Source: an uncultured Pseudomonadota bacterium (lineage in GTDB: Bacteria > Pseudomonadota > Alphaproteobacteria > RF32 > CAG-239). Taken from it: a stretch of 64,000 nucleotides of DNA. Position 1 is the stretch's first letter, and each line of letters begins with the position of its first letter. The notes under the pieces were generated by a model, which ran no database searches, was not told where the DNA came from, and saw only the letters and a program-made list of their open reading frames with translations. Shown here piece after piece: positions 2,932 to 33,084 of this stretch. The stretch is taken from the NCBI GenBank assembly GCA_902761535.1, contig CACWKS010000009.1, positions 1 to 64,000 of the forward strand, written 5' to 3'. The translations under genes and the position numbers were made by a program.

Positions 2932-3574
2932 GTTTATAGGCATATTTTTGTTATTCTTAAGTCTGAACTTTAGTAGCATATCCAATGCCTATGCCGGCAC
3001 GGATATTATCAATAATCTTTTGATTAAAGCCGGTAATGTTATTGATAAAGTTGCCTTAAAATATCAGAAGATATCTATTAAAATAAATGAGTTGACTGAA
3101 GGCAAAATGTTTCAGCTTGATGAAACCACCAGTGATTTAATTCGCAATTTAATGGAGGATTATTATTTAACTGAAGCTAAAATAAAACGATTTGATGATG
3201 ATATAAAATTAGCTAAAGAAGTTTATCAGGATGCCGTAGATTACTATAACCAAGTTAATGAACGCATGAACGAGATTCAAGATAAGGCGGAAGATTTGCT
3301 ACGCAAACGCGGTTGGAATACTGATAACGCATCTGATGATAGCGATGAAGCTAATGAAGAAGACGAAGATGAATCATTCGGAAGCATTACCAATCCTCGT
3401 GCAACAGGCAGTAGTCGAACGATAGTCGGTGGTGGTAGTAGGGGAGATGATTCCTCATCAGGTAGTGGCTCAACAAGAAAACGTTTTATTGATGGAGATG
3501 ATACACCGGATAATCAAAATAATAGTTATTCACCAAATAACCAACTATTGGAGAAATCACATGCTGAAAACTAA
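2924..3574 (+). CDS. exported coiled-coil protein with disordered tail
   Basis: 216 residues. A signal peptide (residues 1-25, ending NAYA) is followed by about 100 residues of amphipathic helix with heptad character, then an acidic stretch (about 135-160) and a Ser/Gly/Asp/Asn-rich, probably disordered tail. The start at 2924 overlaps the end of the previous gene by 8 bases and has GGGGA upstream at 2913-2917. The layout (signal peptide, short amphipathic helices, coil, polar tail) resembles its neighbours at 4226 and 5615, hinting at a divergent family, but I cannot prove homology by eye. Family unknown. Confidence 0.6.
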   Translation: MNRFIGIFLLFLSLNFSSISNAYAGTDIINNLLIKAGNVIDKVALKYQKISIKINELTEGKMFQLDETTSDLIRNLMEDYYLTEAKIKRFDDDIKLAKEVYQDAVDYYNQVNERMNEIQDKAEDLLRKRGWNTDNASDDSDEANEEDEDESFGSITNPRATGSSRTIVGGGSRGDDSSSGSGSTRKRFIDGDDTPDNQNNSYSPNNQLLEKSHAEN

Positions 3575-4220
3575 CCGATTTGTAATTATGCTGAGTTTAT
3601 TGCTGTGTGGTTGTTTTTTACCGTTCGGTCGAGCGGTTTTTGCCGGTGATTTTGATACATTGTTAAGCGGAGCAAAAAATATGGGCGAATTTTTGGCTAG
3701 CGGTGCCGGAGCAAAATATTATGATGACAAAGTAACGGTTTTAAGCGCTGTTTCAGGTCAACCAATGTATGTTTGGAAAGCTCCTTGGGGTGATAATGAA
3801 GAAGGTGCTAATATTGAAAACAATAGCACCAATCGTTGCCGTCTTATCAAAACTCTCAAACCGGGAGAAACTTTAGTTATGCAAACACGCCATAACACAG
3901 AGGCTCTTTTATCTCGCTACGCTACTGACTTATATGTTGAGGCGATAAAAACTGAATTTGATATTGATCGAGAAAATGCTATAGCTCCTGTAAAACATGC
4001 TGCTGAACATACCTTGATTAAGCGTGAGGTTTTGGCTCGTTTGGCCAATATTGCCACTCGCCTTAATGTTATTGTATCATTGGAGGCTCGGACGGCAGCT
4101 ATGGATAACATTGCTAAACTCAGCAAAGTCGGATCTTATGTTTTTAATGAATATGTATATAATCCGGAAGACGGAACTTGTGCCATACCTCATGCAACCA
4201 AGTCGAAAAAAGGAGAATAG
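3561..4220 (+). CDS. exported protein of the T4SS locus, possible lipoprotein
   Basis: 219 residues from the ATG at 3561, preceded by GGAG (3550-3553) and overlapping the end of the previous gene. The N-terminus is a signal sequence with two possible ends: a lipobox-like LCGC near residue 18, or a signal peptidase I site after AVFA near residue 28. The mature part is predominantly helical and ends with a short Cys-containing tail. In classical VirB operons a small helical exported protein in this region is VirB5. The length would fit, but I see no diagnostic motif, so that identity is only a possibility. Confidence 0.6.
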   Translation: MLKTNRFVIMLSLLLCGCFLPFGRAVFAGDFDTLLSGAKNMGEFLASGAGAKYYDDKVTVLSAVSGQPMYVWKAPWGDNEEGANIENNSTNRCRLIKTLKPGETLVMQTRHNTEALLSRYATDLYVEAIKTEFDIDRENAIAPVKHAAEHTLIKREVLARLANIATRLNVIVSLEARTAAMDNIAKLSKVGSYVFNEYVYNPEDGTCAIPHATKSKKGE

Positions 4221-4225
4221 CTGTC

Positions 4226-5602
4226 ATGAAAAAATTTAGTATATTTATTTTATTGACAGTTATGCTAGTAGGTATGACGCTTCCGCTCAAATCGGCTGAT
4301 GCACTGATTCCTTTTGAATTCACTATCCCTGAAACCGCCGGCAAAATCGGTACTTGGGTTCAAGAAAAATTGGCCTGGGTACAATTACAAATCTCTTCAA
4401 TCAGCGAAAGTAAAATTGCTCGACGAATTGGTGATGGTATGAGAACTATTAGAGAAGTGCGCGGTTGCATTCGTAAAATTTATCGCGGACAACCGGTTGA
4501 TAAGTTAGCAGATTATTATAAGAAGTTTGAATTTTCGGAAAATGACGATTGCTACAAATATGTAAAAAAATATCCTTTTTTAGCAAACATTCTTAGAATA
4601 ACCGGTCAGACTCAGCGTATTCTCGGCGAAATCAAAAATGAAGATGCTTACCTGATAATGGATGCCGCTCGCAACGTTGTTGAAGATACAGTACGCATTA
4701 CCGAACTTGAAGAATTGAAAAAACATCGTTTGGAAGAGTTAGAATATCAGGCAGAAATCGATAAAACAACTCTTGCCGCCAAAATTCAAATTGCAGAGAA
4801 AGATTTAGCACAAATGCATGCTGAACATGCGGCTCGACAAGATACCGCTGATAAACTGGATAAAGAGGCAATGCTTCAAGAAGAGGAGCAAATGAAAGTC
4901 GCCATTGCCGATATGAAAATAAGAATGGGCGAAATAAATTTAAAACTTGTAAATGATAAGCTTGTAATAACTCAACAAATCGAAACCGAGATTGCATTGC
5001 TTATCGAAAAACGAGTAAATGATTCCAAATTGCTTGAAGGTCTTCGTGAAAGAGTTAAACAAGGAATAAGAGATAATGCAAATAAAAAAACCGGATTAGA
5101 TATTGCTCTTGAAGCCAAGCAGACCTATAGTGTCGAAGATGACATGAATGATACTATGGAAGCACAGTTAAAACGCATTCAAGCCATCAGAAAAGATATT
5201 ACCAAATCCGATATTGCGGCTCTTAATGAAAGTAACAATTATATTGCTTATGCTCATGACCCGTCCAACAATCCTGAAGTTGATACCGAATTGGGTAGTA
5301 CCACCGAAGGAAAATCGGAAACCTTGCAGGCTTCGATTGATAACACTCTGCGTCAAATAGAAGTAATTGAAAAAATAATCAAAATGGAATTAACTTCTTT
5401 GGAAATGCAAACCAAGAACATCATTTCGCAAAATATCAACCATCATCTTAGCCACAAACGAGAAAATAGCTTAATCATTGATTTTTGTCGTTATCAGGAG
5501 GGGCGTAATCCCAAAAATTCAAAACGCGATAATAATAAAAATAAATCTGAAGATAACAAAAAAAATGATAGCAACGATGATAACAAAACGGAGCATTGGT
5601 AA
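4226..5602 (+). CDS. exported long coiled-coil protein of the T4SS locus
   Basis: 458 residues. The signal peptide is residues 1-26 (ending SADA). After an amphipathic region with two cysteines (about 75 and 110), residues about 155-400 are almost uninterrupted charged helix with heptads, a long coiled coil. The last 35 residues are Asn/Lys/Asp-rich and probably disordered. AGGAG at 4211-4215 decides the start at 4226, since the longer frame has no signal peptide. It sits 5 bp after the preceding stop and 12 bp before the next gene, so it belongs to the same operon. Function unknown; a filament-like or spacer role in the envelope is a guess from the coil length. Confidence 0.65.
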   Translation: MKKFSIFILLTVMLVGMTLPLKSADALIPFEFTIPETAGKIGTWVQEKLAWVQLQISSISESKIARRIGDGMRTIREVRGCIRKIYRGQPVDKLADYYKKFEFSENDDCYKYVKKYPFLANILRITGQTQRILGEIKNEDAYLIMDAARNVVEDTVRITELEELKKHRLEELEYQAEIDKTTLAAKIQIAEKDLAQMHAEHAARQDTADKLDKEAMLQEEEQMKVAIADMKIRMGEINLKLVNDKLVITQQIETEIALLIEKRVNDSKLLEGLRERVKQGIRDNANKKTGLDIALEAKQTYSVEDDMNDTMEAQLKRIQAIRKDITKSDIAALNESNNYIAYAHDPSNNPEVDTELGSTTEGKSETLQASIDNTLRQIEVIEKIIKMELTSLEMQTKNIISQNINHHLSHKRENSLIIDFCRYQEGRNPKNSKRDNNKNKSEDNKKNDSNDDNKTEHW

Positions 5603-5614
5603 AGGAGCAAAAAA

Positions 5615-8600
5615 ATGAAAAAAATATTTTTGACATTATTGATTGCCCTGACAGTTATAATGGCACCCAAAACTTCTTCGGCATTTATATTAAAAGCCAT
5701 TGAAGAGGCTTATAACGTTATACCTTTGTCTCCTGTTATCAATTTTGGCGAAGATATAGCCGAAACCGGTAAATTGCTTAACAAAACCGCAATGAAAGTG
5801 CAAAAACTGGCTATACAAATTAAAAAAGACATTATTACCTTAAAAACTTCTATTTTGGATATTAAGAACAAAGTTGTTGCTGTTGCTCATGGTAATTTTG
5901 GTGCGATAGGGCTAATTATCGGTTTATCCGATCCTAACGCCGAAGTTAAAATCTGTGATGCCGATATGTCTCAAACCAAGCATTCCGGTCTTGCTAAAAA
6001 GCTTCAAGAAATTTTGTTAACTTATGGTGTTGGTGAAAAAGAAATTGTCGAACGTAATCGTCGTAAATTTTATCTTGACAACATATATAATATCTATGCT
6101 GCTGTTCAAGTGCTTAAAGATAATATGTCAGCAAACGGCATCATTGGAACCCAAATTATTGAAACACAAAGTTGTTGCGGCGAAGGTCAAGGAGAACTGT
6201 GTGGTCTTCCGCCGATTATTGAAGGTTCAGAAGAAAACATGACCGAAAAAGACGTAGGCAACAGTGAAATGCTGATGTATTACGGTTATGCACTTGGCAC
6301 TTTAGAAAATCTTATTAAAACTTGGGAGCAGGTTGCCGCCTTAAAAGCTCAGCTTCAAGCTGTCGAAACTTTATTGAATATTGAGCTTAAACCTGATTTC
6401 AGCATTGAAGAAAACGAGGAAATATCCTCTATTGAAACACCTTCGCCGATATATGCCTCAGCCCAAACAATCTACAATCAGCCATTATCTTTTGCACAAA
6501 TGATATATAAAGATAACAGCGATTCTGGTTTTGACGAAATCATTGAAGAAGAGATACATGCCGTTCCCAATGATGGTTTTAGCGGTACTAATATAAAATT
6601 TGTTGAACCGAAAGCAACTCTGCCGGATTCTCCTTATAACAAACGTAAAGAAGCAATGGAAAAATATAGTGACCTTTCAGATATTGAAAATAAAATATCA
6701 AAAGCTCTATCTATTCATAGCAAAATACGCGACATCGATTCATACCAAAAAACTGCTATAGAATATAACAATCTTAAAGATGAATATAATAAAAAATTGG
6801 AAATTATCGAGGATTCGCATAAATGCGGGCTTGGTTATGTCAAACAATATTTTATGGATGAAGATAGTGTTTGGTCCGGAAAGAAATTAAGCGGAACTGC
6901 TCCTGCAGAAACAGAAATGACTGGTGAATACGAATATACAATTAACAATTATGATATTCGTTCCGGAATTTCAGGTTGGGCGATTAACGCTTATGAAATG
7001 GCCAAAGCTGCCTCTGCCAATGATGTTGAAGGATACATAACAAATCTTAATCAAACCAAAGAAAAACTTAAAGACTATGAAAAAGCGGAAGAACAAAGAG
7101 AAGCGGAAGATAAAGATGATTACGATATAAGCGAGAGACAGAGCTCCGAAGGGGTGGATGTTAGTGATGTTAATAGAAAGGCAAGTGAAAATAGAGAAGG
7201 CTCCTATGAAGCAGAAGAAGCAGAAGGAACAGTCACCAACGAAGATCTTGAAGAAGAGACATTGCTTGATGATGATCTGGAGGGTAAAGAAGGTAAAGCT
7301 GACCTGCGAAGCATAGAAGGAAAGAAGGTGGCTGGTAAACAAGATGATTATGATTCCGGTAAAGGTATAAGTGCAGAAAAATCCAAAGAAACTCAAAAAG
7401 AAAATCGTCGTGCCAATATGATAGCATGGCAAATCGGTGCATTAGCCTCAGAGGATTTAGGTATTAACGGCGGTTCTGAAGGACCTTGGGGCCAAACTAA
7501 GGATAAGTTGATGGTTTGGCAAGATGCTAAGATTTTTTACGACCAATATCTTTACCGTAAATATGAAAATATTAAAAAATATCTCCAAAGATATATCGAA
7601 GCCGATATAATTGAGCTGTTTGCATCTCTCATAAACAATGGCCAAGTAATGAACATTAATCAAACATCTTATCAGAAACTATGGAAAGATAAATATGCAA
7701 CAGCTATTGCTGAAATAGAAGAAGTATTTCCATCTGACAGTAATAAAATTGAAGCAGATCCGACTTTAATAAGCGAAAGAGACCGGCTTGAAGCTGAGAT
7801 AAACAAATTAGATAAGCAAATCAAAGACCTTGCCCAAAATGTCAATGATGCGTATTTTGGAGCTGAAACAAAATCCTATGAGGATAATGATAGGATTGCT
7901 GCTGAATCAATCGACTATTTAACACCTGATGAAGAAAAAGAAAAAAAGGTCAAGAGTATTGATGAGGTAAAGCGAAAAGTTAATAGTGATAGTCTAGAAG
8001 GGAAAGGGTATGCTTTAAGTAGTAAATCAAATTTAGATGTCCTTAAAAGCTCTATTCGTGATGCCCAAATTAAGTTGGACGATGTAAACCGGAAGATTGA
8101 AGAAAATATACGAAAAAAGCAAGAAGAACTCGTAAAAAATGCAGCAGTTAATAGAAATAAAATAAATCTTATAATTGATGAATTTGAAGATGCTGTTCGA
8201 GGTAAGATGGATAAGAAAGGTGAGTATGATATTCCGAAGGCGCGTAAAAATAAAGCATTATCAACTCTCGAAAATGTATTAAAAGACAAGATTCAAATTG
8301 ATGATTCAGGAGAAAAAACTAGATTGATTAAAACCATCAAGAATGGAATTAATAAACAAGCTGGCTCCATCATAACAGAATTAAATAAACAAATAGATAA
8401 AATAGTAAATGATGGTTTGGCTGATATGAAGTATCAATTAGGAGATGAAATGTATCTTCCCGACCGTACAACTTCTGCAAAAATCGTTAATCTTCACAAA
8501 GGTATTATTAGCCGACTTCAAAGAGTATCGGTTACTGCAACCGTTTCTGAAATGATTGGCACAACCTTAGAAACATTCACGTTCCCTGTAACGATCAGCT

Positions 8601-10222
8601 CTTTAATTCCCGGTGCAGCTGCAATTTCCGCCGTTGGCGGTCCGCTTTCCTCCGCAGCAATGGCAACTGATTTGTTGACCATCAATACTGATGCTGACGA
8701 TAATTTCTTTGTTGGTGCTTTACCTGCCAGACGAGATTTCAAAGCTCCGTATCCGATGGAAGATTTCAGCCAACCGCCGGTCCGCGAAATTTTTCACTTT
8801 GATATGGTTGATTTTGCCAATATTCAGCCCTATAATGCGAAAAGATTTGAGCAATTCGACAAAAACCCCACTGAAAAATATCAAGAAATGTTAGCTATCT
8901 CTCGCGGTGATTTCTTAAATTATGGCGGTAAAGTTCCTGAATTATGGAAAAAGATGCTAGGTGCTTATGGGCCGGCCTTTGTTCAATCTGAATTTCAGCT
9001 GCAGCCGGCACTCAATCAGGGGTGTGAGGCAGTAGCTCTTCTGCGCGGTGGTATTATGCCATGCCGTGTTGGCAATACGTCAACTGTAATGGATGTTTTA
9101 GTAGAAAAAAGCAATAAAAATAAAGATGGATATAAAGAAAATGAATTTTATTATAAACCGAACAAGCCTTTGGAGGTAGATAAATATTATGTTACCAGAA
9201 ATGATTTGGATGCTAAAGATTTACCTAAATGTATTTTAATTGAAATGGGAGAAAAAGGACCGTTTTTATCTTATTACGAAGAATATGCCAAGATTGAAGA
9301 TGGAATAAGTGAAGAAGATTTACCGCCATTACCGTATCAATGTATAGCCAGTGAATTGGGTATGATACTCGATGCCGATGAGGATAATAATCTTTATTTC
9401 AAACCCTTTATTTATAAACTGTTCAATGATAATTATTATATAAACGAAAAGCAGGGTCATGGAAAAAAGAAATATAAAAGCGAGTCAAGTGCCTTGGCTC
9501 TTTCCGAGCAGGCTCAGCTATCCCGTAATCAAGTCGGTGATTTCTTGCGTCAGGCTGAATCCGAGAAAAAAATGCGCCAATCTTTGGAAGAAATGAAAGC
9601 TAAAAAAGACGCTCAGATGAAGGAATTGGAAACATTATTCAAAGACGAAAATAACGAGCTGTTTCCTGCAAACAATAAGCCGAATTTTAATAAGGATTGG
9701 GATTTGACTGATGACAATATAGTTAATCAGATTAAAAATTCATTGAGAGAAGCAAAAAATAATCTCATTGGAGATGAAAATAATGGCATTGGAAATGACA
9801 TTAATAATGTCCTTAATAATAACAAAAATAATGAAGGCTCCGCAACATCTGATGAAGAAGATAGCGAAAGCCAAAAATTGATTAAAGAACGCTTAAGAAA
9901 ATTACAGGAACTTGTTAATTATCTTAATATATCTGGTAAAAAATATTCAAAAGATGGTAAAACTTGTTATCAATATAAAGGTATCAAAGACGACGAAAAC
10001 AAAGATGTATGCGGAGCATTTGAATATCCCAGTGAATATATTAATGTAACCATGGATGCTGTTGAAGAAGAAAATTGGCAAGAGGAGCTGAATAAACAAA
10101 TAGGAAATGCTGTCGCCGATAATGATGCTACCACTGAATACCATGAGGGAAAAAAGAAAAAAGCACATGAAGATGACGGAAATTATCGTGATTTAGAGGA
10201 GGCGTATTGCGCTAATTACTGA
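5615..10222 (+). CDS. giant exported coiled-coil protein of the T4SS locus (1535 aa)
   Basis: The second largest protein in the locus, unrecognised. A signal peptide (residues 1-23, ending TSSA) precedes amphipathic helices. A cysteine cluster (CC and nearby C) lies around residue 190, and charged low-complexity helix covers about 470-600 and 700-950. A short Gly/Ala/Ser-rich hydrophobic stretch sits near residues 985-1025. A more globular segment (about 1040-1270) with four or five cysteines follows, and the C-terminus is a highly charged, Asn-rich tail. AAAGGAG precedes the start. The stop (TGA, 10220-10222) overlaps the ATG of virB8 by one base, so this protein is almost certainly made with the secretion core. 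VirB6 of Rickettsiales can be this large but is strongly polytopic; this one is not, so I do not call it VirB6. Confidence 0.65.
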   Translation: MKKIFLTLLIALTVIMAPKTSSAFILKAIEEAYNVIPLSPVINFGEDIAETGKLLNKTAMKVQKLAIQIKKDIITLKTSILDIKNKVVAVAHGNFGAIGLIIGLSDPNAEVKICDADMSQTKHSGLAKKLQEILLTYGVGEKEIVERNRRKFYLDNIYNIYAAVQVLKDNMSANGIIGTQIIETQSCCGEGQGELCGLPPIIEGSEENMTEKDVGNSEMLMYYGYALGTLENLIKTWEQVAALKAQLQAVETLLNIELKPDFSIEENEEISSIETPSPIYASAQTIYNQPLSFAQMIYKDNSDSGFDEIIEEEIHAVPNDGFSGTNIKFVEPKATLPDSPYNKRKEAMEKYSDLSDIENKISKALSIHSKIRDIDSYQKTAIEYNNLKDEYNKKLEIIEDSHKCGLGYVKQYFMDEDSVWSGKKLSGTAPAETEMTGEYEYTINNYDIRSGISGWAINAYEMAKAASANDVEGYITNLNQTKEKLKDYEKAEEQREAEDKDDYDISERQSSEGVDVSDVNRKASENREGSYEAEEAEGTVTNEDLEEETLLDDDLEGKEGKADLRSIEGKKVAGKQDDYDSGKGISAEKSKETQKENRRANMIAWQIGALASEDLGINGGSEGPWGQTKDKLMVWQDAKIFYDQYLYRKYENIKKYLQRYIEADIIELFASLINNGQVMNINQTSYQKLWKDKYATAIAEIEEVFPSDSNKIEADPTLISERDRLEAEINKLDKQIKDLAQNVNDAYFGAETKSYEDNDRIAAESIDYLTPDEEKEKKVKSIDEVKRKVNSDSLEGKGYALSSKSNLDVLKSSIRDAQIKLDDVNRKIEENIRKKQEELVKNAAVNRNKINLIIDEFEDAVRGKMDKKGEYDIPKARKNKALSTLENVLKDKIQIDDSGEKTRLIKTIKNGINKQAGSIITELNKQIDKIVNDGLADMKYQLGDEMYLPDRTTSAKIVNLHKGIISRLQRVSVTATVSEMIGTTLETFTFPVTISSLIPGAAAISAVGGPLSSAAMATDLLTINTDADDNFFVGALPARRDFKAPYPMEDFSQPPVREIFHFDMVDFANIQPYNAKRFEQFDKNPTEKYQEMLAISRGDFLNYGGKVPELWKKMLGAYGPAFVQSEFQLQPALNQGCEAVALLRGGIMPCRVGNTSTVMDVLVEKSNKNKDGYKENEFYYKPNKPLEVDKYYVTRNDLDAKDLPKCILIEMGEKGPFLSYYEEYAKIEDGISEEDLPPLPYQCIASELGMILDADEDNNLYFKPFIYKLFNDNYYINEKQGHGKKKYKSESSALALSEQAQLSRNQVGDFLRQAESEKKMRQSLEEMKAKKDAQMKELETLFKDENNELFPANNKPNFNKDWDLTDDNIVNQIKNSLREAKNNLIGDENNGIGNDINNVLNNNKNNEGSATSDEEDSESQKLIKERLRKLQELVNYLNISGKKYSKDGKTCYQYKGIKDDENKDVCGAFEYPSEYINVTMDAVEEENWQEELNKQIGNAVADNDATTEYHEGKKKKAHEDDGNYRDLEEAYCANY

Positions 10223-10980
10223 TGGAAGAAAATATTCAAAATCCGCAAATTAATAACGATTCCACAATCAAGGCTATTACCGGTGACACTCCGCAAGGTC
10301 CGCAATATCTTGAACACTTGGATAAAATATCTCACTCCGCCAAAATGGTTTATTATATGTTGATATCGCGCTTTTTGGTGTTGGTTACAATATTATCCAT
10401 GACTTTTTTGGTTTTATCCTCATTGGTATTATTTCGTATGGCTCCGCGCGTTACGGTTGAACCGCTCTTATTGGTTAAAAATACCTCATCGAATGATTTA
10501 ATCAGTCATGAGCCCATTGCCTTTAATATGCCCTCGCGTGATGCCCTGATGAAAATGTATATTCGTCAGTATATAATGTTGCGTAATACTATCATTCACG
10601 ATCAAACCGAAATGCAAACTCGCTGGATGGCCGGCGGCATGGTGCATTTTTTGTCTTCTCCCGAAGTTTATAACGAATTTGGGGCTTCTACTGCCAAAAA
10701 TTGGAAACAGATTATCAGTCAGCCGCTCACCCGTGAAGTTGAGATAGTATCAATGAGCAAACAAGGAGGAAACAATTCTCCGACTTGGGTAGTCGATTTT
10801 AAGACCTATGATTTACCCAATGTCAAGGGAACCAGGGCTTCTGCCGAAAATGTAGACAGTAAATTTTGGACAACCGCCATCACCGCTATGTTTATTCCCG
10901 AGCGCTCTTTTTCGTTCAATCGTTTAATCAATCCATTAGGCTTTACAGTTGTTCGTTATTCTCAAACCGACAAATATTAA
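10222..10980 (+). CDS. virB8: VirB8-like T4SS inner-membrane protein, copy 1
   Basis: VirB8 is a bitopic inner-membrane assembly factor of type IV secretion systems with an NTF2-like periplasmic domain. This 252-residue protein has a cytoplasmic N-tail, one transmembrane helix (about 43-71) and a periplasmic domain. The domain ends with the family's conserved NPLGF-TVVRY stretch before the C-terminus. Size and layout match the family (about 220-250 residues). The start overlaps the upstream stop (TGATG), implying translational coupling; the GAGGAGG at about 10196 is rather far away. A second VirB8 lies at 11315. The two are similar in layout but clearly diverged. Confidence 0.88.
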   Translation: MEENIQNPQINNDSTIKAITGDTPQGPQYLEHLDKISHSAKMVYYMLISRFLVLVTILSMTFLVLSSLVLFRMAPRVTVEPLLLVKNTSSNDLISHEPIAFNMPSRDALMKMYIRQYIMLRNTIIHDQTEMQTRWMAGGMVHFLSSPEVYNEFGASTAKNWKQIISQPLTREVEIVSMSKQGGNNSPTWVVDFKTYDLPNVKGTRASAENVDSKFWTTAITAMFIPERSFSFNRLINPLGFTVVRYSQTDKY

Positions 10981-13739: not shown

Positions 13740-16700
13740 ATGAGTGATGAGCAATTAACAAATTCTGAAAGATATGTTAAAAAGACCAATACAGTAATCC
13801 TGATTATAGGTCTTGTTTCTTTACTTATATTTATTTTTGGTCTTATTCTGCTTATGAGCAGCGGAGACGATTCTAATTTGTATGAAGAGCCGGTATTTAA
13901 CGATCAAGATGATGTTTTTACCCAGCAGCAAACCACCGATCAATCGACTTCAATCGAAATGGTAACGGCTGAAAGCGATAGTCCTTTTACGGCAACTCCC
14001 GATCCTGTTCCTATGGGGGAGGTTGTTTTGGGTACTGAAGCCAAGAATGTCTTAACTCTGGGTACAAATGGTAAATCAGCAATAAAAATTGTTTCCGTAG
14101 AACTGGCAGAACCTCCTTCAGCAGGATTTGTTTATAACGATAAATGTTCCGGAATAGCTTTAAGCGGTAAAGAAACTTGTCATATAACGATGACATGGAA
14201 ACCGATTATTGCTGGTAATGTCCAAAATAATTTTTTAATAATGTGGCATGAAATTAATATAAATCAAGAAAATACCAAAACCGCCAAAATTCCGGTAAAC
14301 GGCAACGCTGTAAATCGTGAAGAGTGCCGTTATTGCGAAAATGAAACAGCACCGCTTGAACAGCAGGAATATGGCAAAGCTTTGCAGGCTGCTATAGGCC
14401 CAGATGGAAAAAATATAGGAGTTGTTGATAAAGAAGGTTATGCCCGAGACGATAATGGAAATATTATCGGAAAGATAGCAACAGACGGACTTATCATGGA
14501 TAAGGATGGTAACGTTATAGGTGTAGCAGAAAATAATAAAATAGCATATGACGAGTTTTCTAATTTGGTTGGATATGTTACCCCGGATAATGAAATAGTT
14601 GATGATGAAGGAAAAGTAATCGGAAAAGTGCTCCCTGACGGTACGGCCTTAGATCCGAGCGGAGGGATAATAGGCAACACAACAAACATTGGTTTGGTTT
14701 ATAACGATTCCGGAGAAATAATAGGAAAAGCTGTCCCTGATGGATCAATAGTTAATGAAGATGGTGATATCATAGGACAAGTGCTGTCAAATGATAAAGT
14801 TGTTGATAAAAATGGCAATAATATAGGACATATTGCTCAAACCGGAAGAGCTGTTATAGATGTAAAAGGCGACATCCTTGGTGTGACTTTGCCCAGCGGA
14901 GAAGTTGTAAATTCAAAAGGAGAAATAATAGGTAAAGTAAAAGATAATGGCGAGGTTGTTGTTGAAAATTCACCTTTAATCGGTAAGAAAGTACGAATAG
15001 CATATGATAAAAACGGCACAACTGTAGGTTATATAGATACAAATAATAATTTGGTAGATGCCCATGGGGAAGTAATCGGTAAGGCTCGAAGTGACAACAA
15101 AGTAGAAAATCTTAAAGGGGACGTTCTGGGATACGCCGATGAAGAAATAACATTTAGTGCTGATAATTCGGTAATAGGTAAAATAGTTACATTTGAGCGT
15201 ATTCCGATTACTCCGGCAGGTTCAGTTTTAGGCAAACTTAAAAATGACGGAAGTATCGAAAATGAGCGTTCGCAAATAGTTGGACGTATGTTGCCTAATG
15301 GATTGGTTAAAGATCAAAGCGGGGCAAAAGTAATTGCCAAAATGGTCAGAGCAGGAAATGTTATGGGGTTTGGCTGCAATATTATAGGTTATTTGGATGT
15401 GGATGGTAAAATTAAAAATAATAACAGTGATACCAATTATAAAATAACCCCGGAAGGCTTGGTTTTAGATACGGAAGGAAATTATTTAGGCGGAATACTT
15501 CCTCGAGGTAAGGTTTTCAGCAATGATTGCAAATTATTGGGAAACATAGACAATTCTGGTTTAGTAAAAGATGAAAGTAACCGATTCGTCGGTTGTGTAA
15601 ACCCTGATGGCACGGTACTCAATGAAAAAGGTGATTTAATAGGTGCTGTTGCCAAACAAGGTACAGCTGTCAATATTAACGGTAAATATCTTGGATATGT
15701 AAATGCAAATAATATTTTGATTAATAACAAAAATGAGCCTATCGGATGTGTCGGTATATTTGGTGATATTTTTAATAATAAAGGATCTTATATCGGAAAG
15801 ATGTTGGATAGAAAATATGCCTATGATTTTAGTGGTAATTATATCGGTGAGGTTGATGCTAATGCAAAAATTAAAGTTTATGAAAATCCGGCATATATGT
15901 TGTCTTCTGACGGATTGGTGTTAGAAGACAACAATACTATAAAAGGTATAGCTCTTCCGTCAAACGCATCAGTAATCAGTTCTTCAGGAAAAATAATAGG
16001 TTTTTTATTTCCGGATGGCAATGTGTATAATATTCAAGGTGTGGTTCAAGGCAAATTGGTTAATGGCGGATATGGAGAATATAATGGTGTTTTGGGAGCA
16101 CTATTGCCCAAAGGTGAAGTCATAGATATAAACGGCAAAATTATCGGAACGGTTGCTCCTGATGGGCGAGTTTTGACACGCTATGGCGATGCTATTGGTA
16201 AAGTCAATTCTAAAGGAGATTATTATGATGTTAAAGGCGAGTATAAAGGGCATATTGTTTCCAAAGGAGTTGGTATCAGTTATAATGGTTCTTATATAGG
16301 TTATGCTGTTTCTGATGGAAAGGTTATTGATGAAAGTGGCAAAATTGTAGGGCATGTTACTCATGATAAAAAAGTAGTTGATAATGCCGGTAAGATTATA
16401 GGAGAAATATTATCAGAAGGTGCAGTAATAGATGTTACCGGTAATTATCAAGGAATTATGAATTCACTCGGAGATATCATAAATAAAAAAAATGAGGTTG
16501 TAACAGCTATTTTGCCAGGAGGAAGTAGCGATAAAGGATTAAATTTATTTAATACCGGTGTAGTAATTGATTTCGGAGGATCAGTTATAGGTTTTGTATT
16601 ACCTGACGGACAAGTTAATGGATTAAACAACTCTCCTTTAGGTAAAGTTTTTCCTGATGGCAATGTATTAAGTTCAAGCGGAAAAATTATTGGGGAAGTT

Positions 16701-17042
16701 GTTAGCGGTGATATAGTTATATCAAATAGCGATAAAGTTGTGGGTTATGTTAATTTTGATGGTCAAATTATAGGATTTGATGGTACAATAATCGGCAGAG
16801 TTCTATCAGGGGGATTGGCTGCAGATATGAATAACCACGTTTTAGGCAAGACATATAAGATCGGCGCAACTGTTTTAGATAGTAAAGGAATATATCGCGG
16901 ACGGATTTCTCCTTCCGGATCAGTTATTAATGCCCAAAGCAAAATAATCGGTAGTATTAAGAGCAACGGTTCTTTTGTTGATTTGGATAAGAATGTCGCC
17001 GGATATGTCTTAGGCGAAGTTGCTAAGAATAGGAGGAACTGA
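13740..17042 (+). CDS. inner-membrane-anchored ASH/Ig-domain protein with ~50 17-residue repeats
   Basis: 1100 residues. A cytoplasmic tail and one transmembrane helix (about 18-39) place the rest in the periplasm. Residues about 80-190 resemble an ASH-type (choice-of-anchor D) Ig fold: VPMGEVVLGT, two cysteines, then TMTWKPIIAGN. From about 215 to the end there are roughly 50 copies of a 17-residue unit, approximately DG-x-V-x-D-xx-G-xx-IG-x-V-xx, related to fungal DUF3659-like repeats in look. The next gene has the same repeats joined to a VirB10 channel domain. The pair together covers the anchor, stalk and outer-membrane parts normally found in one VirB10/DotG polypeptide. The AGGAGG of the next gene lies inside this gene's last codons. 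Function as half of a split scaffold is inference. Confidence 0.75.
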   Translation: MSDEQLTNSERYVKKTNTVILIIGLVSLLIFIFGLILLMSSGDDSNLYEEPVFNDQDDVFTQQQTTDQSTSIEMVTAESDSPFTATPDPVPMGEVVLGTEAKNVLTLGTNGKSAIKIVSVELAEPPSAGFVYNDKCSGIALSGKETCHITMTWKPIIAGNVQNNFLIMWHEININQENTKTAKIPVNGNAVNREECRYCENETAPLEQQEYGKALQAAIGPDGKNIGVVDKEGYARDDNGNIIGKIATDGLIMDKDGNVIGVAENNKIAYDEFSNLVGYVTPDNEIVDDEGKVIGKVLPDGTALDPSGGIIGNTTNIGLVYNDSGEIIGKAVPDGSIVNEDGDIIGQVLSNDKVVDKNGNNIGHIAQTGRAVIDVKGDILGVTLPSGEVVNSKGEIIGKVKDNGEVVVENSPLIGKKVRIAYDKNGTTVGYIDTNNNLVDAHGEVIGKARSDNKVENLKGDVLGYADEEITFSADNSVIGKIVTFERIPITPAGSVLGKLKNDGSIENERSQIVGRMLPNGLVKDQSGAKVIAKMVRAGNVMGFGCNIIGYLDVDGKIKNNNSDTNYKITPEGLVLDTEGNYLGGILPRGKVFSNDCKLLGNIDNSGLVKDESNRFVGCVNPDGTVLNEKGDLIGAVAKQGTAVNINGKYLGYVNANNILINNKNEPIGCVGIFGDIFNNKGSYIGKMLDRKYAYDFSGNYIGEVDANAKIKVYENPAYMLSSDGLVLEDNNTIKGIALPSNASVISSSGKIIGFLFPDGNVYNIQGVVQGKLVNGGYGEYNGVLGALLPKGEVIDINGKIIGTVAPDGRVLTRYGDAIGKVNSKGDYYDVKGEYKGHIVSKGVGISYNGSYIGYAVSDGKVIDESGKIVGHVTHDKKVVDNAGKIIGEILSEGAVIDVTGNYQGIMNSLGDIINKKNEVVTAILPGGSSDKGLNLFNTGVVIDFGGSVIGFVLPDGQVNGLNNSPLGKVFPDGNVLSSSGKIIGEVVSGDIVISNSDKVVGYVNFDGQIIGFDGTIIGRVLSGGLAADMNNHVLGKTYKIGATVLDSKGIYRGRISPSGSVINAQSKIIGSIKSNGSFVDLDKNVAGYVLGEVAKNRRN

Positions 17043-17043
17043 G

Positions 17044-20000
17044 ATGAAAAAAATCTCTTTATTCAGATTCGTTGTAGCAACCTTAACAAGTGTAATAAGC
17101 ATTTATTCGTTTAACAATGTATCAGCCCAAGAAATTACCGCAATCAATTTTCAGGGTGAAATTTTAGGAAAAGTTATTTCCGATGGTAAAGTAGTCAGCA
17201 TGGAAAATAAGGTTTTAGGAAATGTCACGGCTGATAGTTTTATATTAGATAATAAAGGGAATATTATTGGAGGAGTTGTACCGCAGGGAGTAGCTATCGG
17301 CAACGATGCTAAAGTATTGGGAAAAGTAAGCGGCGATGGTATTATAAGAAGCGCTGCCGGACAAATAATGGGAAAGGCTTTGCCTAGCGGTCTTGTAGTT
17401 AATGACTATTTCGATATAGTAGGACAAATAATATTTCCTGGGTTGGTTTATGATGATGAAGGAAAAATTGCAGGGCGTGTAACCGGCGACGGCTCATATA
17501 GTGATTTAAGCGGAAAGCAAAAAGGTATTATTACTCCTGATGGTTACGCCTATCGTAAAGAAAATAAAGATTACATTCTGGACGGACGGCTTATTTCATC
17601 ACGAATGGTCGTTTCAACCGGTGGAAACTTTATAGGTAGTGTTGTCCCAGGAGGACAAGTCACTGATTTTAATTCGGAAGTGCTCGGCTATATAAAAGCT
17701 AATGAGTATGTATATGATAATCAGAATAGTATTATAGGAAAATTAGTAAATACAGGTTATGCCATCAATGAAAATGGTGAAGAACTCGGTATTGTCAGCT
17801 ATAACGGAGTTGTTATTAAAGAAGGAAAATCAATTGGAAAAATCAGAGCCGATGGGCGTATTGTAGGAAATACTGGTTCAGTAATCGGTTCCGAATTGCC
17901 CTTTACCGGAGTAGCTGCCGATATGCAAGGAAATTATTTAGGATATATGAATGTCAACGGGCAAATTGCTAAAGGATCATCTGTTATAGGCAAGGTTGGT
18001 TCGCGTGGTTTTGTTTTTGACAAAGATGGTGATGTTAAAGGAAAAATTGTTAAAACCGGACCAATTTATAATTATCAAGGAGAACAGGTTGGACACGCTG
18101 TAAGTAACGGCTCAGTTATTAATCTTGATGGTACAACTATCGGATATATGATAGGAGAAACTGCTTATAATCTGTCGGGAGAAATAATAGGTAATGTATT
18201 GAATAATCAAATCATTTTTACTAATACAGGATCTTATGTCGGAATGTGCGGTATATCGTCACAGTTTAATTATAAAGGGGATAAATTAAAGATATCCCCC
18301 TTGGGATATGTCTGGAATTCCAAAGGAGATATTATCGGACGAACTCTGCACAACAGTTCTTTTTACACGGCTGCAGGAACCTTGTATGCTTATATGAATT
18401 TGTCAGGACAAGCTTTAAGAGCAGATGGTGGCGATACGGAAAAAATTATCGGCAATGGCATGACCTTAAATATTCAGGATAATATAACAGCACAAACTAT
18501 TAATATTCAAACAGCCGTAAATTATGAAGGTATAATGGTGGGTGTTCCGAATCAACATAATGCTTTGTTGAATAAAAATATGAAGCAAATTGGTAAAGTA
18601 TTGCCCGATAGCAGTGTTTCAAGCTTTGGTGGAACCAATTATATGCCTAAAATAGGGCAAGCTTATCAAGAAAACATCGCTGTAAAATTTAATGGTGATT
18701 TTTTGGGACATATTGATGTTAGCGGCAATGTTATCGGACATGACGGAGTGAAAGTCGGTTATCTGGTAGAAAGAGGACTTGTCAGCAATAATGGAGGAAG
18801 CATTGTCGGCATGGTGATAAATTATTCCGGAGCAAGTAATGATAAATGTGAATTATTAGGTGTAACTACACAGCAGGGAACAGTTTTTAATGCTAGAGGA
18901 GTATTTGTCGGGAAAATATTGGGAGATAATAGTGTTATAGGAAGTTCTGGTATAGTTTTGGGCAAGATGTCACGACAGTTACCTTTAATTAATTTTTCCG
19001 GTAAAATAATCGGATATTCTGATTATCAAGGAATAGCCTATAATCTTAAAGGAGAAAGACTTGGGTGTATAGATTCTCAAGGACGTCTATATGATGCCTC
19101 AAAAGAATGGATAGGCGGTTTGGTTAGTTACGATTCATTTATAGATTTTAACGGCAAGATAAAAGGATTTGCCTTATTTGACGGCACTATTATTGATGAT
19201 AAAAATAGTATTTCTGCATATCAGCAACCTGATGGAAATATAAATTCAAATTCTGGTATTCCGCAAGGTATGCTTATGCATTATAAAGTCGCTTTTGATT
19301 TAAATAACCGATTTATGGGATATGTAGATAGTCAAGGAAAAGTATTGGATAGCCGGCATAAAGGAATTGGCAGGGTTGATTTTGATGGAAATGTATATTC
19401 AGGCAAGGATTTAATGGGCTATGCCCTTAATAATATGTATGTGTATGGAAATAACGGACAAGTACTTGGAGTGATTTCTCCGTCCGGTGAAGTTGCTGAT
19501 TTTAATAATCATAATTTAGGAATGTTAGATAAAGGTTTCGTAATTGCAAATAATGAAGTTATTGCACGTGGCGAACGCGATTATAATATCCGTGATAACC
19601 AAAAATTAGTATTGGGTGAGTTGCTGTTTAATGGCAATGTTATTAATAAAAAAGGTAAAGTTATCGGATCAATTAATAATGAAGGACAAGTTATCGATTC
19701 AGCAGGTTCTGTTATAGCTCAAGCAACTCCTTTACAATATTATCGTAAAAGTTTAATAAAGCCAAGTCCTTCATCACACCAAGATAAAAGTCGTGAAGTG
19801 GAAGCAATAGTAAATAATATGGGAGAAACGATAGGATATATCTCAGAAGGAGGAGTATTAATAAACAATCAAGGGAAAGTAGTCGGGCAAATAAATGCTG
19901 ATAATGAAGTAACAAACGAACAAGGCAAAAAAATCGGTAAAATAAATGAGCAAGGAAATGTTATAAACGAACAAGGTGAGGTTGTCGGAAGAAAAGAGAG

Positions 20001-22455
20001 TGTGGAGACTTTATTACCGACGATACCAATGGTTGAAACAATAGTAGATAATACAGGTTCGACAATAGGATATATTACGCCGCAAGGAGATGTGGTAAAT
20101 GATAAAGGAGAAAGTATCGGAGAGATAATGCAGGACGGTAAATTTATTGATTTGCAAGGAGAAGAGATAGGCCGCATTAATTCTCAAAATCAATTAGTGG
20201 ACAGCACAGGAAAAGTAATTGGCTTAAAGAGCAGAGTAGTAACATCGTTGCCGGTATCGCGTGAAGCTGAAGCCATAGTAGATAATATGGGAGAGACTTT
20301 AGGATATATCTCCGAAGAAGGAATATTGATAAACAATCAAGGGGAAGTAGTCGGGCAAATAAATGCTGATAATCAAGTAACAAACGAATATGGTGAAAAG
20401 ATTGGCAAAATAAATGAGCAAGGAAATGTTATAAATGAACAAGGTGAGGTTATCGGAAGAAAAGAGAGTATAGAAACTTTGTTGCCGACGATACCGATGG
20501 TTGAAACAATAGTAGATGCTTCAGGTAAAAAGATAGGACATGTAACAAGCAAGGGAATAATAATAGATGAACAAGGTCAGGTAACCGGAAAAATAGATTC
20601 ATCTGGCAAGGTTACCGATGAGCAAGGAAGTACAATCGGTCAGTTGAATCAGCGTAATGAAATAGTTGATGGCCAAGGCAAAGTTGTAGCTCGCAAAAAT
20701 AAAACCAAAACAACTTTATCAGCAGCTAAAGGTATAGGTGCATTGTTTGACAAACTTGGTAAGCTTATAGGGTATCTGACACCTGATGGTAAACTTATTG
20801 ATGAAGATATGGAAGTTTTGGGTGAAGTAAGTTCTGATGGTAAAATTATTAGTGCTGATGGCGAAATGGTAGGACGTATTAATTCTCGGAATGAAATAGT
20901 TGATAATCAAGGTAAAAAAATCGGGCGTAAAGGCCGAATATCTGCTAATAGCAAAATAATGAAAATGATACAGCAAAGCCAAAATCAATCAAATCCGATA
21001 GATCCTTTTACTATTCCTGTAAAACCCCAAGAGAATATTTCAGATATAATTATTACCGGTGATGATTATATAAAATCGTTAAATATAGCACTCACATCTG
21101 ACGGCAAATTTTTAGGTGACATATTACCCAGCGGAGAAGTTAAGGATGATAATGACAAAGTTGTCGGTTATCTTATGCCCGATAATACAGTTATTGATGG
21201 TAACGGTAACACAATAGGTGTTAAACAATCTTCTGGAGAAGATACAAAACCTATAGTTGAAAAACCATCAGGAGAAGTATTTATTCCTAGCGTTCCTAAT
21301 GCATATAGAAATGACGCTGTACCTAATATTGGTCCCGGAGGAGGTACCGGTCCTGGAGAGCGTTATGATCCAGTACGTCGAGCAGCATTAAATAGAGCTA
21401 TGCAACAAAGACGTGCCAACATAAGACCGGGTAGTGTAAAGAGTAAGATAAATGAATCTTCTTTTACCGGATATGAAAAGTTAAATACAACAAAATCTAC
21501 ATGGAAAATAGATTTAAGTAACATTATTTTGTCAGGTAAACCTATTCCGGCCGTAATAGCTAGAGCTATAGATACAAATCATCCTGCACCGGTAGTTGCT
21601 TATGTTGAACGTAATGTTTATGCTGAAGAGGGAAGAAATGTTATTATTCCTGCTGGTTCAAGAGTGCAGGGCCAATTCGGTAGTATTAGTGGTCCTACTG
21701 AGGCAACCTCAAATTCCGCTCGAGTGCAGATTTCATGGAATCGTTTAATCAGACCCGACGGATCAATGTTTGATTTAGGTGGTGCTTCAACTGCTGATGC
21801 TCAAGGACGTATAGGTGCGTTGGGCTATGTCGATCAACAATTATTAAAGAAATATACTTTACCGGCTCTTACAACGGTTCTTAGCTCAACAGCTGCATAC
21901 GTCATGGCAACAGATGATAATAGTAGCGGAAGCGTAGAAACTTCTAAACAGGAATCGGCAAATGATGCTCGAAGGAATTTTCTTGATAATATGCAGAATA
22001 TATTTGATCAAATTTTGACGGATAAAACCAACGTAAAAGCTGTGACTTATGTTCCTAACGGAACAAGAATTATTATTTATACTCAAAGAGATTTAGAAAT
22101 ACGCACTCCTGACAACGCTAATGAAGAAAATAACGAAGATGGAAATTTCCATGGGCTGATAGATAAAGATGTTACTCAAACTTCAGCTAATGTTCCGCCA
22201 GGAACTAAAACTTATGGTCCTGGAGGTCCTAGCAGTACTCTGAGTGGTGATACAGGAGGTCAAGTTGTCTATAATCCTGATTCGCTTAACCTTAAACCGT
22301 CAGGCACAACCCCGCTCATTTCTAACGGTACATCGGCAAAAAGAACGCCACCTCCGCCTCCGCCGATGTATGGTGCAAATAACAATAGCCAAAATACTGA
22401 AACTGGCAATACAAACTCTTCAAATAATGACAACAGCGTGCCGGCACTATTTTAG
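17044..22455 (+). CDS. virB10: giant exported repeat protein with C-terminal VirB10/TrbI domain
   Basis: 1803 residues. A signal peptide (residues 1-30, ending NVSA) is followed by about 75 copies of a 17-residue GxxIGxV-type repeat (about 35-1400). The VirB10/TrbI channel domain covers about 1485-1690: GKPIPAVIARAID, NVIIPAGSRVQGQ, then VTYVPNGTRIIIYTQRDLE. The tail contains a run of prolines. Classical VirB10 has an N-terminal inner-membrane helix and a Pro-rich stretch just after it. Here the N-terminus looks like a cleavable signal, and the Pro-run is at the far end. The start at 17044 has AGGAGG at 17031-17036; the earlier in-frame ATG lacks a signal. DotG of Legionella also pairs repeats with a VirB10 domain, so a long repeat stalk has precedent. 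The inner-membrane part seems to be supplied by the preceding gene. Confidence 0.83.
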   Translation: MKKISLFRFVVATLTSVISIYSFNNVSAQEITAINFQGEILGKVISDGKVVSMENKVLGNVTADSFILDNKGNIIGGVVPQGVAIGNDAKVLGKVSGDGIIRSAAGQIMGKALPSGLVVNDYFDIVGQIIFPGLVYDDEGKIAGRVTGDGSYSDLSGKQKGIITPDGYAYRKENKDYILDGRLISSRMVVSTGGNFIGSVVPGGQVTDFNSEVLGYIKANEYVYDNQNSIIGKLVNTGYAINENGEELGIVSYNGVVIKEGKSIGKIRADGRIVGNTGSVIGSELPFTGVAADMQGNYLGYMNVNGQIAKGSSVIGKVGSRGFVFDKDGDVKGKIVKTGPIYNYQGEQVGHAVSNGSVINLDGTTIGYMIGETAYNLSGEIIGNVLNNQIIFTNTGSYVGMCGISSQFNYKGDKLKISPLGYVWNSKGDIIGRTLHNSSFYTAAGTLYAYMNLSGQALRADGGDTEKIIGNGMTLNIQDNITAQTINIQTAVNYEGIMVGVPNQHNALLNKNMKQIGKVLPDSSVSSFGGTNYMPKIGQAYQENIAVKFNGDFLGHIDVSGNVIGHDGVKVGYLVERGLVSNNGGSIVGMVINYSGASNDKCELLGVTTQQGTVFNARGVFVGKILGDNSVIGSSGIVLGKMSRQLPLINFSGKIIGYSDYQGIAYNLKGERLGCIDSQGRLYDASKEWIGGLVSYDSFIDFNGKIKGFALFDGTIIDDKNSISAYQQPDGNINSNSGIPQGMLMHYKVAFDLNNRFMGYVDSQGKVLDSRHKGIGRVDFDGNVYSGKDLMGYALNNMYVYGNNGQVLGVISPSGEVADFNNHNLGMLDKGFVIANNEVIARGERDYNIRDNQKLVLGELLFNGNVINKKGKVIGSINNEGQVIDSAGSVIAQATPLQYYRKSLIKPSPSSHQDKSREVEAIVNNMGETIGYISEGGVLINNQGKVVGQINADNEVTNEQGKKIGKINEQGNVINEQGEVVGRKESVETLLPTIPMVETIVDNTGSTIGYITPQGDVVNDKGESIGEIMQDGKFIDLQGEEIGRINSQNQLVDSTGKVIGLKSRVVTSLPVSREAEAIVDNMGETLGYISEEGILINNQGEVVGQINADNQVTNEYGEKIGKINEQGNVINEQGEVIGRKESIETLLPTIPMVETIVDASGKKIGHVTSKGIIIDEQGQVTGKIDSSGKVTDEQGSTIGQLNQRNEIVDGQGKVVARKNKTKTTLSAAKGIGALFDKLGKLIGYLTPDGKLIDEDMEVLGEVSSDGKIISADGEMVGRINSRNEIVDNQGKKIGRKGRISANSKIMKMIQQSQNQSNPIDPFTIPVKPQENISDIIITGDDYIKSLNIALTSDGKFLGDILPSGEVKDDNDKVVGYLMPDNTVIDGNGNTIGVKQSSGEDTKPIVEKPSGEVFIPSVPNAYRNDAVPNIGPGGGTGPGERYDPVRRAALNRAMQQRRANIRPGSVKSKINESSFTGYEKLNTTKSTWKIDLSNIILSGKPIPAVIARAIDTNHPAPVVAYVERNVYAEEGRNVIIPAGSRVQGQFGSISGPTEATSNSARVQISWNRLIRPDGSMFDLGGASTADAQGRIGALGYVDQQLLKKYTLPALTTVLSSTAAYVMATDDNSSGSVETSKQESANDARRNFLDNMQNIFDQILTDKTNVKAVTYVPNGTRIIIYTQRDLEIRTPDNANEENNEDGNFHGLIDKDVTQTSANVPPGTKTYGPGGPSSTLSGDTGGQVVYNPDSLNLKPSGTTPLISNGTSAKRTPPPPPPMYGANNNSQNTETGNTNSSNNDNSVPALF
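19792..20049 (+). repeat. long direct repeat in the virB10 stalk, copy 1
   Basis: This 258-bp segment is repeated at 20260-20517, exactly 468 bp (156 codons) downstream, with only scattered substitutions. Most other 17-residue units in the protein are far more diverged, so this is a recent in-frame duplication of a block of repeats. Confidence 0.8.
20260..20517 (+). repeat. long direct repeat in the virB10 stalk, copy 2
   Basis: Second copy of the segment at 19792-20049, same frame and length. Recombination between the copies would remove or add 156 residues without breaking the frame. Confidence 0.8.
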
Positions 22456-32374: not shown

Positions 32375-33067
32375 ATGTATTTATGGATGATTTTAGCAGC
32401 ATTTTTAGCGACTTTAGCTGCTTATGTTCTGCCCTTGCGCCATGATATGGACAAGATGCTGGACGATCCTATTGCCGAAACCGTGTTAATGAAAATGAAA
32501 ATCAAGCACTATACCGTACAAAAAATGATGAGAGCTCTAACCAATGATGATGATTCCGTCCACTATCAAGCAACCGAGCAGGCTGACGATTTCAAAAAAG
32601 AAGGCGGAGTTTCTATTAACATAGAATCTTACAAACCTTATGGTTTTAACCTGAGTACTGATTATCACAGCGTTATAAAGTGTTTTTGCTATACCCCCGG
32701 AGCAGAGGGAGCAGAAGGCACTTATAACTTAACCGCAAACAACGCTTGTAATCAAGAAGCATGCGATGAAGGGCAAGTCGTCAAGCGTGGTCTTTTGACT
32801 TACGGTCCGATTCCCCAACATTGGCTGATGAAAACATCGACCGGTTGGACACCCTCCGCAGATTTATTAGCGGCTTTTCGCAAAAATTTTGCCAGCGGAA
32901 TAAAAGTCGGCATCATCGTTGAAAATGATGGCAGCTATTCTATCCAAACTTATAGTGCGGTGGATAATGCAAGTTATTCTATTCCAGAGCAATTTGGTAT
33001 TTCTGCCACCGGCTGTGACAACAAAAACGTCAAAAACGTATGCTTTGGCTATTTGAGCGGCATCTAA
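32375..33067 (+). CDS. small exported/anchored protein upstream of giant pilin-like gene
   Basis: 230 residues starting with a hydrophobic helix at the extreme N-terminus (residues 2-20) and no charged leader. It should therefore be inner-membrane anchored with the rest outside. Residues about 108-135 and 215-226 hold six cysteines in pairs, typical of disulfide-stabilised minor pilins. AGGGAG (about 32361) precedes the ATG. It is separated from the prepilin-like gene by 17 bp, so the two probably form one transcript. No family recognised; a minor-pilin or pilin-assembly role is inferred from the neighbour. Confidence 0.55.
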   Translation: MYLWMILAAFLATLAAYVLPLRHDMDKMLDDPIAETVLMKMKIKHYTVQKMMRALTNDDDSVHYQATEQADDFKKEGGVSINIESYKPYGFNLSTDYHSVIKCFCYTPGAEGAEGTYNLTANNACNQEACDEGQVVKRGLLTYGPIPQHWLMKTSTGWTPSADLLAAFRKNFASGIKVGIIVENDGSYSIQTYSAVDNASYSIPEQFGISATGCDNKNVKNVCFGYLSGI

Positions 33068-33084
33068 CAATGAGGAGAAACTTT

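Follow-up and report, generated by a model that had tools for sequence, protein, structure and literature searches.

In the alphaproteobacterial order RF32, the VirB10 scaffold of a type IV secretion system is encoded by two adjacent genes, and this division is, judged by gene content, gene order and phylogeny, an old and conserved gene fission that cut the scaffold inside its repeat array. We consider it probable that the fission yielded a two-chain VirB10 whose chains meet via blocks of fixed length on either side of the break, with the bridge between the membranes rebuilt non-covalently. The pair of genes was studied in the window, by which we mean the whole stretch of 64,000 nucleotides that was analysed, and its parts are as follows.

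13740..17042, forward strand: gene 1 ('VirB10-N'), 1100 aa, ATG at 13740 and stop at 17042, defined by its ORF, domains and fold
13782..13860, forward strand: approximate coding stretch of the single transmembrane (TM) helix of gene 1, residues about 15-40; AF2 helix at 8-40
13980..14330, forward strand: ASH/PapD-like domain of gene 1, PF15780 at residues 81-163, VIA-align Z 12.8 to 6fvi
14400..17030, forward strand: repeat array of gene 1, length-locked from about residue 501 in 59 loci, with expansions at about 401-500
17028..17042, forward strand: last codons of gene 1, AAT AGG AGG AAC TGA, which encode NRRN and hold the Shine-Dalgarno sequence of gene 2
17044..22455, forward strand: gene 2 ('VirB10-C'), 1803 aa, ATG at 17044, with TTG at 17020 as an upstream alternative start
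17044..17127, forward strand: signal peptide of gene 2, predicted cleavage VSA↓QE
17128..21320, forward strand: repeat array of gene 2, mature residues 1 to about 850 length-locked and about 850-1350 variable
21526..22098, forward strand: TrbI/VirB10 outer-membrane channel domain of gene 2, residues 1495-1685, PF03743 at 1.1e-35

The gene 1 protein has a short cytoplasmic end followed by one TM helix, a periplasmic ASH domain and about 50 beta-hairpin repeats that extend to the C-terminus. Its helix reaches a maximal 19-residue hydropathy of 3.27 in the window copy, and the uncharged core spans 21-28 aa in the orthologues. PF15780 (ASH) scores 24.6 bits, slightly under the 27-bit Pfam cut-off, and the assignment is backed by the predicted fold, residues 71-194 of the model aligning with the ASH/PapD-like domain of CEP192 at the Z value given above. 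Gene 2 encodes, in order, the signal peptide, the repeat array, a Pro-rich linker and the VirB10 channel domain. A profile search of gene 2 against VirB10/TrbI, which an earlier sequence-only reading of this DNA had proposed, yielded 123.6 bits for PF03743 (cut-off 35) and 112 bits for the VirB10 model NF038091, the latter under its whole-protein cut-off of 220. AF2 models were confidently all-beta both for gene 1 (pLDDT 82.3, pTM 0.71) and for residues 1-640 of gene 2 (pLDDT 88.8, pTM 0.86). The sequence-only reading had described the first gene as a TM helix, an Ig-like ASH domain and repeats, and the second as a cleavable-looking signal, the same repeats and a VirB10 domain, and both descriptions are borne out.

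Two separate genes occur in every locus of the order in which both ends were readable, and 59 distinct loci were used for comparison. The split loci cover 14 genera of the family and one further family (L031-L059, L091-L093 and L110-L149, with contig ends, Ns or a clear frameshift breaking up a few of them). Locus L065, from the second family, shows the same division, as does locus L094 of genome G083, which belongs to another order and whose two contigs overlap at the end of gene 1. A search of other genomes for the same adjacency, also proposed earlier, found it kept in every read locus of the order.

By established rules, the N-terminus of gene 2 is a predicted signal peptidase I substrate, and neither an anchor nor a lipoprotein. 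All 59 orthologues have a small residue at -1 and a permitted residue at -3, none has Cys at +1, and the median length of the signal is 28. It might nevertheless be supposed that this N-terminus is an uncleaved anchor, such that gene 2 alone would be the envelope-spanning VirB10 and gene 1 an extra partner. The stretch is indeed hydrophobic, with a median 19-residue hydropathy of 1.68, and in some species it includes up to 22 uncharged residues. We nevertheless regard an uncleaved anchor as very improbable, given the uniform fit to the -3/-1 pattern, a median uncharged core of 14 aa as against 22 aa for the gene 1 TM helix over the 59 loci, and the homology of the N-terminal TM helix and ASH domain of fused homologues, described below, to gene 1 and not to gene 2.

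The junction between the genes is tight: among the 59 loci the gap from the gene 1 stop to the gene 2 start is mostly 1-4 nt, and gene 2 begins with TTG in 28 loci, ATG in 21 and GTG in 10. The conserved protein end of gene 1, NRRN, is mostly coded as AAY CGG AGG AAY, which contains a Shine-Dalgarno sequence, and the last Arg, the penultimate codon, is AGG in 57 of the 59 loci as compared with 130 of 2862 Arg codons in the remainder of gene 1. The ribosome-binding site of gene 2 thus lies within the last codons of gene 1, which indicates that translation of the two genes is probably coupled. In locus L145 (7400-7446) the Shine-Dalgarno sequence has been lost from the end of gene 1 (AGA AGA) while the NRRN protein sequence is kept, and a 19-nt gap precedes gene 2; NRRN may thus be important as protein too.

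Genes that overlap or nearly touch could, in principle, yield one polypeptide by programmed frameshifting or readthrough, or could result from an assembly or sequencing error. An example of what an error or a recent frameshift would look like, as distinct from a genuine split, is provided by the outgroup locus L101 (4131-10693, reverse strand), where a fused-type scaffold is spread over two ORFs (589 + 1598 aa) and the second lacks a signal peptide; the break there looks like a frameshift, and an error or a phase switch can also be named. In the order itself, gene 2 lies in the three possible frames relative to gene 1 in 27, 20 and 12 of the 59 loci, so that there is no shared slip relation, and programmed frameshifting or readthrough was rejected on this ground. 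A sequencing or assembly frameshift was likewise rejected, as the sequence-only reading had maintained, since the same gene pair recurs in 59 loci, the second gene each time with a signal peptide; many independent assemblies agree, and in a joined product the signal peptide would fall mid-chain. A single polypeptide, or an artefact, is therefore scarcely credible.

The origin of the split is indicated by its relatives. Seven outgroup genomes from four families carry a single ORF of 1273-2831 aa with the TM helix and ASH domain of gene 1 first, repeats following and the VirB10 domain last (L060, 2831 aa; L063, 1273; L095, 2521; L096, 2149; L097, 2348; L100, 2216; L102, 2193). All seven occupy the same place between virB9 and virB11, with the same gene order, and nothing comparable to a signal or an anchor occurs inside the fused chains; these differ from the window genes in being one chain instead of two. 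The N-terminus of gene 1 is, by sequence comparison, homologous to that of the fused chains. On a tree of VirB8, VirB9 and VirB11 the split rows together with L094 form one branch (SH-aLRT 99), and the split or fused label requires one change. The outgroup rows have long branches and L063 is placed with uncertainty, but all fused rows fall outside the split branch. Since the fused outgroups hold the same place and the split rows form one clade with one change on the tree, the split is old, and it is most simply read as one fission that took place in an ancestor shared by this order and the order of G083. The sequence-only reading had regarded single fused ORFs in relatives as counting against a two-part scaffold. 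Such ORFs do exist, but only outside the split clade, where they reveal fission and do not refute the division, and the proposal that one VirB10 scaffold is divided into two chains is strongly supported by the fused outgroups, the identical gene order and the single change on the tree.

Profiles joined across the end of gene 1 and the start of gene 2 mapped the break in tidy order in L060 only, with the gene 1 end at 988-1139 and the gene 2 start at 1151-1319. On most other fused chains the joined profiles scored like control joins, and for this reason the mapping was not used.

More distant homologues in L061, L062, L066 and L107 consist of one short chain that is free of repeats, and several of them have an ASH domain. 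Three of the short homologues with ASH have a lipoprotein-like N-terminus (LTAC↓GK, LASC↓GE) instead of a plain TM anchor, which looks like another putative departure from the usual VirB10 anchor.

L061, 3-1829, reverse strand: short VirB10 homologue with ASH
L062, 7864-9456, reverse strand: short VirB10 homologue with ASH
L107, 4225-5742, reverse strand: short VirB10 homologue with ASH

Within the window the gene pair sits between virB9 and virB11, the position of VirB10/TrbI, and the surrounding secretion genes are the following.

10222..10980, forward strand: second VirB8-like gene, PF04335 at 53.9 bits
11315..12055, forward strand: VirB8-like gene, PF04335 at 83.8 bits
12045..13730, forward strand: VirB9-like gene (CagX family) with a C-terminal SPOR domain, PF03524 at 51.4 bits and SPOR at 21.4 bits
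22355..23434, forward strand: VirB11-like ATPase, TIGR02788, the downstream neighbour in the read loci

The VirB9-like gene is the upstream neighbour of gene 1 in all read loci; the SPOR domain at its C-terminus, of the peptidoglycan-binding type, barely exceeds the Pfam cut-off. A VirD4-like coupling protein is encoded on another contig of the genome, and weak VirB6/TrbL-like matches occur on other contigs. Three weak TrbL/VirB6-like matches that lie near one another (L164 and L165, at about 77-82 kb of contig C3 of the same genome), in frames of 446, 969 and 1042 aa, might constitute a VirB6 series. Upstream of the virB8 genes, at 117-10222 of the window, lies a series of genes for exported proteins, in part coiled-coil-like and in one case 1535 aa long, for which no convincing family match was found. 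Elsewhere in the window, 33040-36057 encodes a protein of 1005 aa whose N-terminus (KGSIMIEALAMLGLIAMVTPVLYRKA) is of type IV pilin-like character and precedes ASGNVTA-type repeats, with a weak FapA beta-solenoid match, and 41428-43965 encodes an autotransporter-type protein (PF03797).

Legionella DotG/IcmE carries repeats, and the sequence-only reading had filed the scaffold with DotG. This filing was not supported. The ATPase scores 139.5 bits with the VirB11 model TIGR02788 as against 15.9 bits with the DotB model TIGR02524 (cut-off 463.3), and the solved structures matched by the gene 2 channel domain are those of ComB10 (2bhv, 7.5e-15), TraF, CagY, TrwE and VirB10, the family entry 3jqo being matched at 3e-8, with DotG not among them at E<=1. 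Because the ATPase fits VirB11 and not DotB, and the channel matches lack DotG, the system is assigned as VirB-like rather than Dot/Icm-like.

The inventory is also relevant to whether the system is decaying, the split being an early step of loss. The N-terminus of gene 1 was detected in 117 of 153 genomes of the order, and the 36 in which this part was not detected include some incomplete assemblies; moreover, no VirB4 was found in this genome with PF03135, PF19044 or TIGR00929. Against decay, both genes are intact across the 14 genera with gap-free conserved blocks, and VirD4, VirB8, VirB9 and VirB11 are present, which leaves it an extremely improbable explanation.

The two arrays are built of the same kind of repeat. 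The top autocorrelation is at 17 residues both for gene 1 and for the first half of the gene 2 array, while in the last part of the latter a 78-residue super-repeat is strongest and period 17 comes second. Dividing array length by 17 gives about 52 repeats for gene 1 and about 75 for gene 2, close to the roughly 50 and 75 first proposed, and a 17-mer profile counts 45 and 60, respectively, as against about 2 in shuffled sequences. PF21785 (beta-flower) scores 208.9 bits on gene 1 and 269.5 bits on gene 2 (cut-off 38) and both arrays also match DUF3659; by these profile matches the repeats are of beta-flower/DUF3659 type, and each 17-residue unit is predicted to contribute two short strands to an all-beta array. 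Predicted structures, of proteins of unknown function, served to define the beta-flower fold (PMC10584680). The window repeats exceed the Pfam cut-offs of this group (PF21784/PF21785), but beta-flower proteins are single small barrels of 4-6 hairpins (PMC10584680), whereas the family described here carries 42-127 repeats in gene 1 and 35-81 in gene 2 as part of a secretion scaffold. In the rest of this 1.44 Mb genome no other copy of the repeat family was found, and donation of the signal and array by another repeat protein of the genome was rejected on that account.

Fold searches of the array gave local hairpin matches only, also with regard to a closed 4-, 5- or 6-fold barrel of the beta-flower type. 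Foldseek matched the array to the YD-repeat shells of Rhs and teneurin proteins with an E value of 2e-21 but with TM values of 0.05-0.12, in agreement with a weak YD-repeat profile match; VIA-align against the PDB produced nothing at Z 5 or more, and a viral fold library produced no usable match. Given the low TM values and the lack of VIA-align hits at that threshold, the modelled resemblance to Rhs/YD shells is read as one of local hairpins only.

The array runs to within a few residues of the gene 1 C-terminus and begins at mature residue 2 of gene 2, and its behaviour differs strongly along its length. Residues 501-1103 of gene 1 (in alignment numbering, where the row begins 3 residues before the ATG) and the first 850 or so mature residues of gene 2 align with near-zero indels across the 59 loci, and length variation is confined to about 401-500 of gene 1 and about 850-1350 of gene 2. 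The former region, beside the N-terminal block of gene 1, holds an average of 423 inserted residues per sequence. Identity to the window copy is 0.56 at residues 1001-1100 of gene 1 and 0.58 and 0.54 at mature residues 1-100 and 101-200 of gene 2, as compared with 0.26-0.50 in the other length-locked stretches of the array. The sequence-only reading had envisaged matched repeats in the two chains. Matched or compensating repeat numbers were not found: the counts vary independently and anticorrelate across loci (rho -0.61, a value not corrected for relatedness).

The break-facing halves keep a fixed length and are best conserved at the new termini, whereas the repeats in other parts of the arrays are free to multiply; this pattern suggests that the chains rejoin through these blocks. 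The sequence-only reading had proposed homotypic contact between the repeats, and contact at the break is plausible. The gene 1 protein would stay anchored in the inner membrane, the gene 2 protein would be released to the periplasm with its VirB10 domain inserting in the outer membrane, and coupled translation would hold the amounts of the two proteins comparable. The blocks beside the break, about 600 residues of gene 1 and about 850 of gene 2, would then meet in the periplasm near the new termini, and so restore a bridge between inner and outer membrane that is covalent in the outgroups and would now be non-covalent. That the two exported chains rejoin in the periplasm via their length-locked beta-hairpin arrays, such that transfer of force or signal needs no covalent link, is in our estimate somewhat more probable than its contrary.

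The main rival explanation is that the two halves have lost contact and the envelope is bridged by other subunits, gene 1 having become an anchored periplasmic scaffold of the inner-membrane complex and gene 2 an outer-membrane channel only, with VirB9, VirB8 or the large upstream proteins spanning the distance. Such a parting would accord with repeat numbers that evolve independently and anticorrelate, with the long, confidently modelled array that each protein possesses, and with the several large exported proteins of unknown family in the same cluster. Conservation of the facing ends could also be due to something else, for example to contacts made with VirB9 or VirB8. However, no read locus departs from the adjacency, the coupled start site or the gene order, and the blocks flanking the break are fixed in length and reach their highest conservation at the ends that face each other, for which reasons we consider a functional parting of the halves rather unlikely and favour their rejoining at the break.

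The C-terminal channel domain of gene 2 is common to VirB10/TrbI proteins including VirB10, TrwE, TraF of pKM101 and ComB10. In known members of this group a single chain holds both the inner-membrane anchor and the channel (PMC9371333), and the beta arrays of the window pair are absent; in the window the anchor lies in gene 1 and gene 2 has a signal of predicted cleavable type. In Helicobacter CagY a VirB10 domain ends a very long repeat protein, as in gene 2 (PMC9371333), but CagY is one chain, and its repeats are an alpha-helical module, to go by the title of reference 80 in that article, whereas those of the window pair form two chains and are modelled as all-beta. Legionella DotG/IcmE is the VirB10-class core protein of an expanded system (PMC9371333). 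A DotB-type ATPase belongs to systems of that type, and the window ATPase scores very low with the DotB model. CagY and DotG, the long versions known so far, each consist of one chain, and the two-gene VirB10 is a new form of a known kind of scaffold. We found no account of a split VirB10 in the literature, in a search made without most subscription journals, nor any literature linking RF32 with type IV secretion.

The coupling of inner and outer parts in type IV secretion machines is poorly resolved; density that possibly belongs to the N-terminal part of VirB10 could not be assigned in the R388 structure (PMC9259494). A whole order with VirB10 cut in two, together with single-chain outgroups, constitutes a natural experiment on the need for a covalent link, and the two new termini offer a defined place to look for the joint. 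It also places beta-flower repeats, so far without a known role, in a secretion scaffold. With no continuous chain, these gut bacteria must either reassemble the bridge or replace it, and if they reassemble it, transfer of force or signal from the inner to the outer membrane would be possible without a covalent link in type IV secretion.
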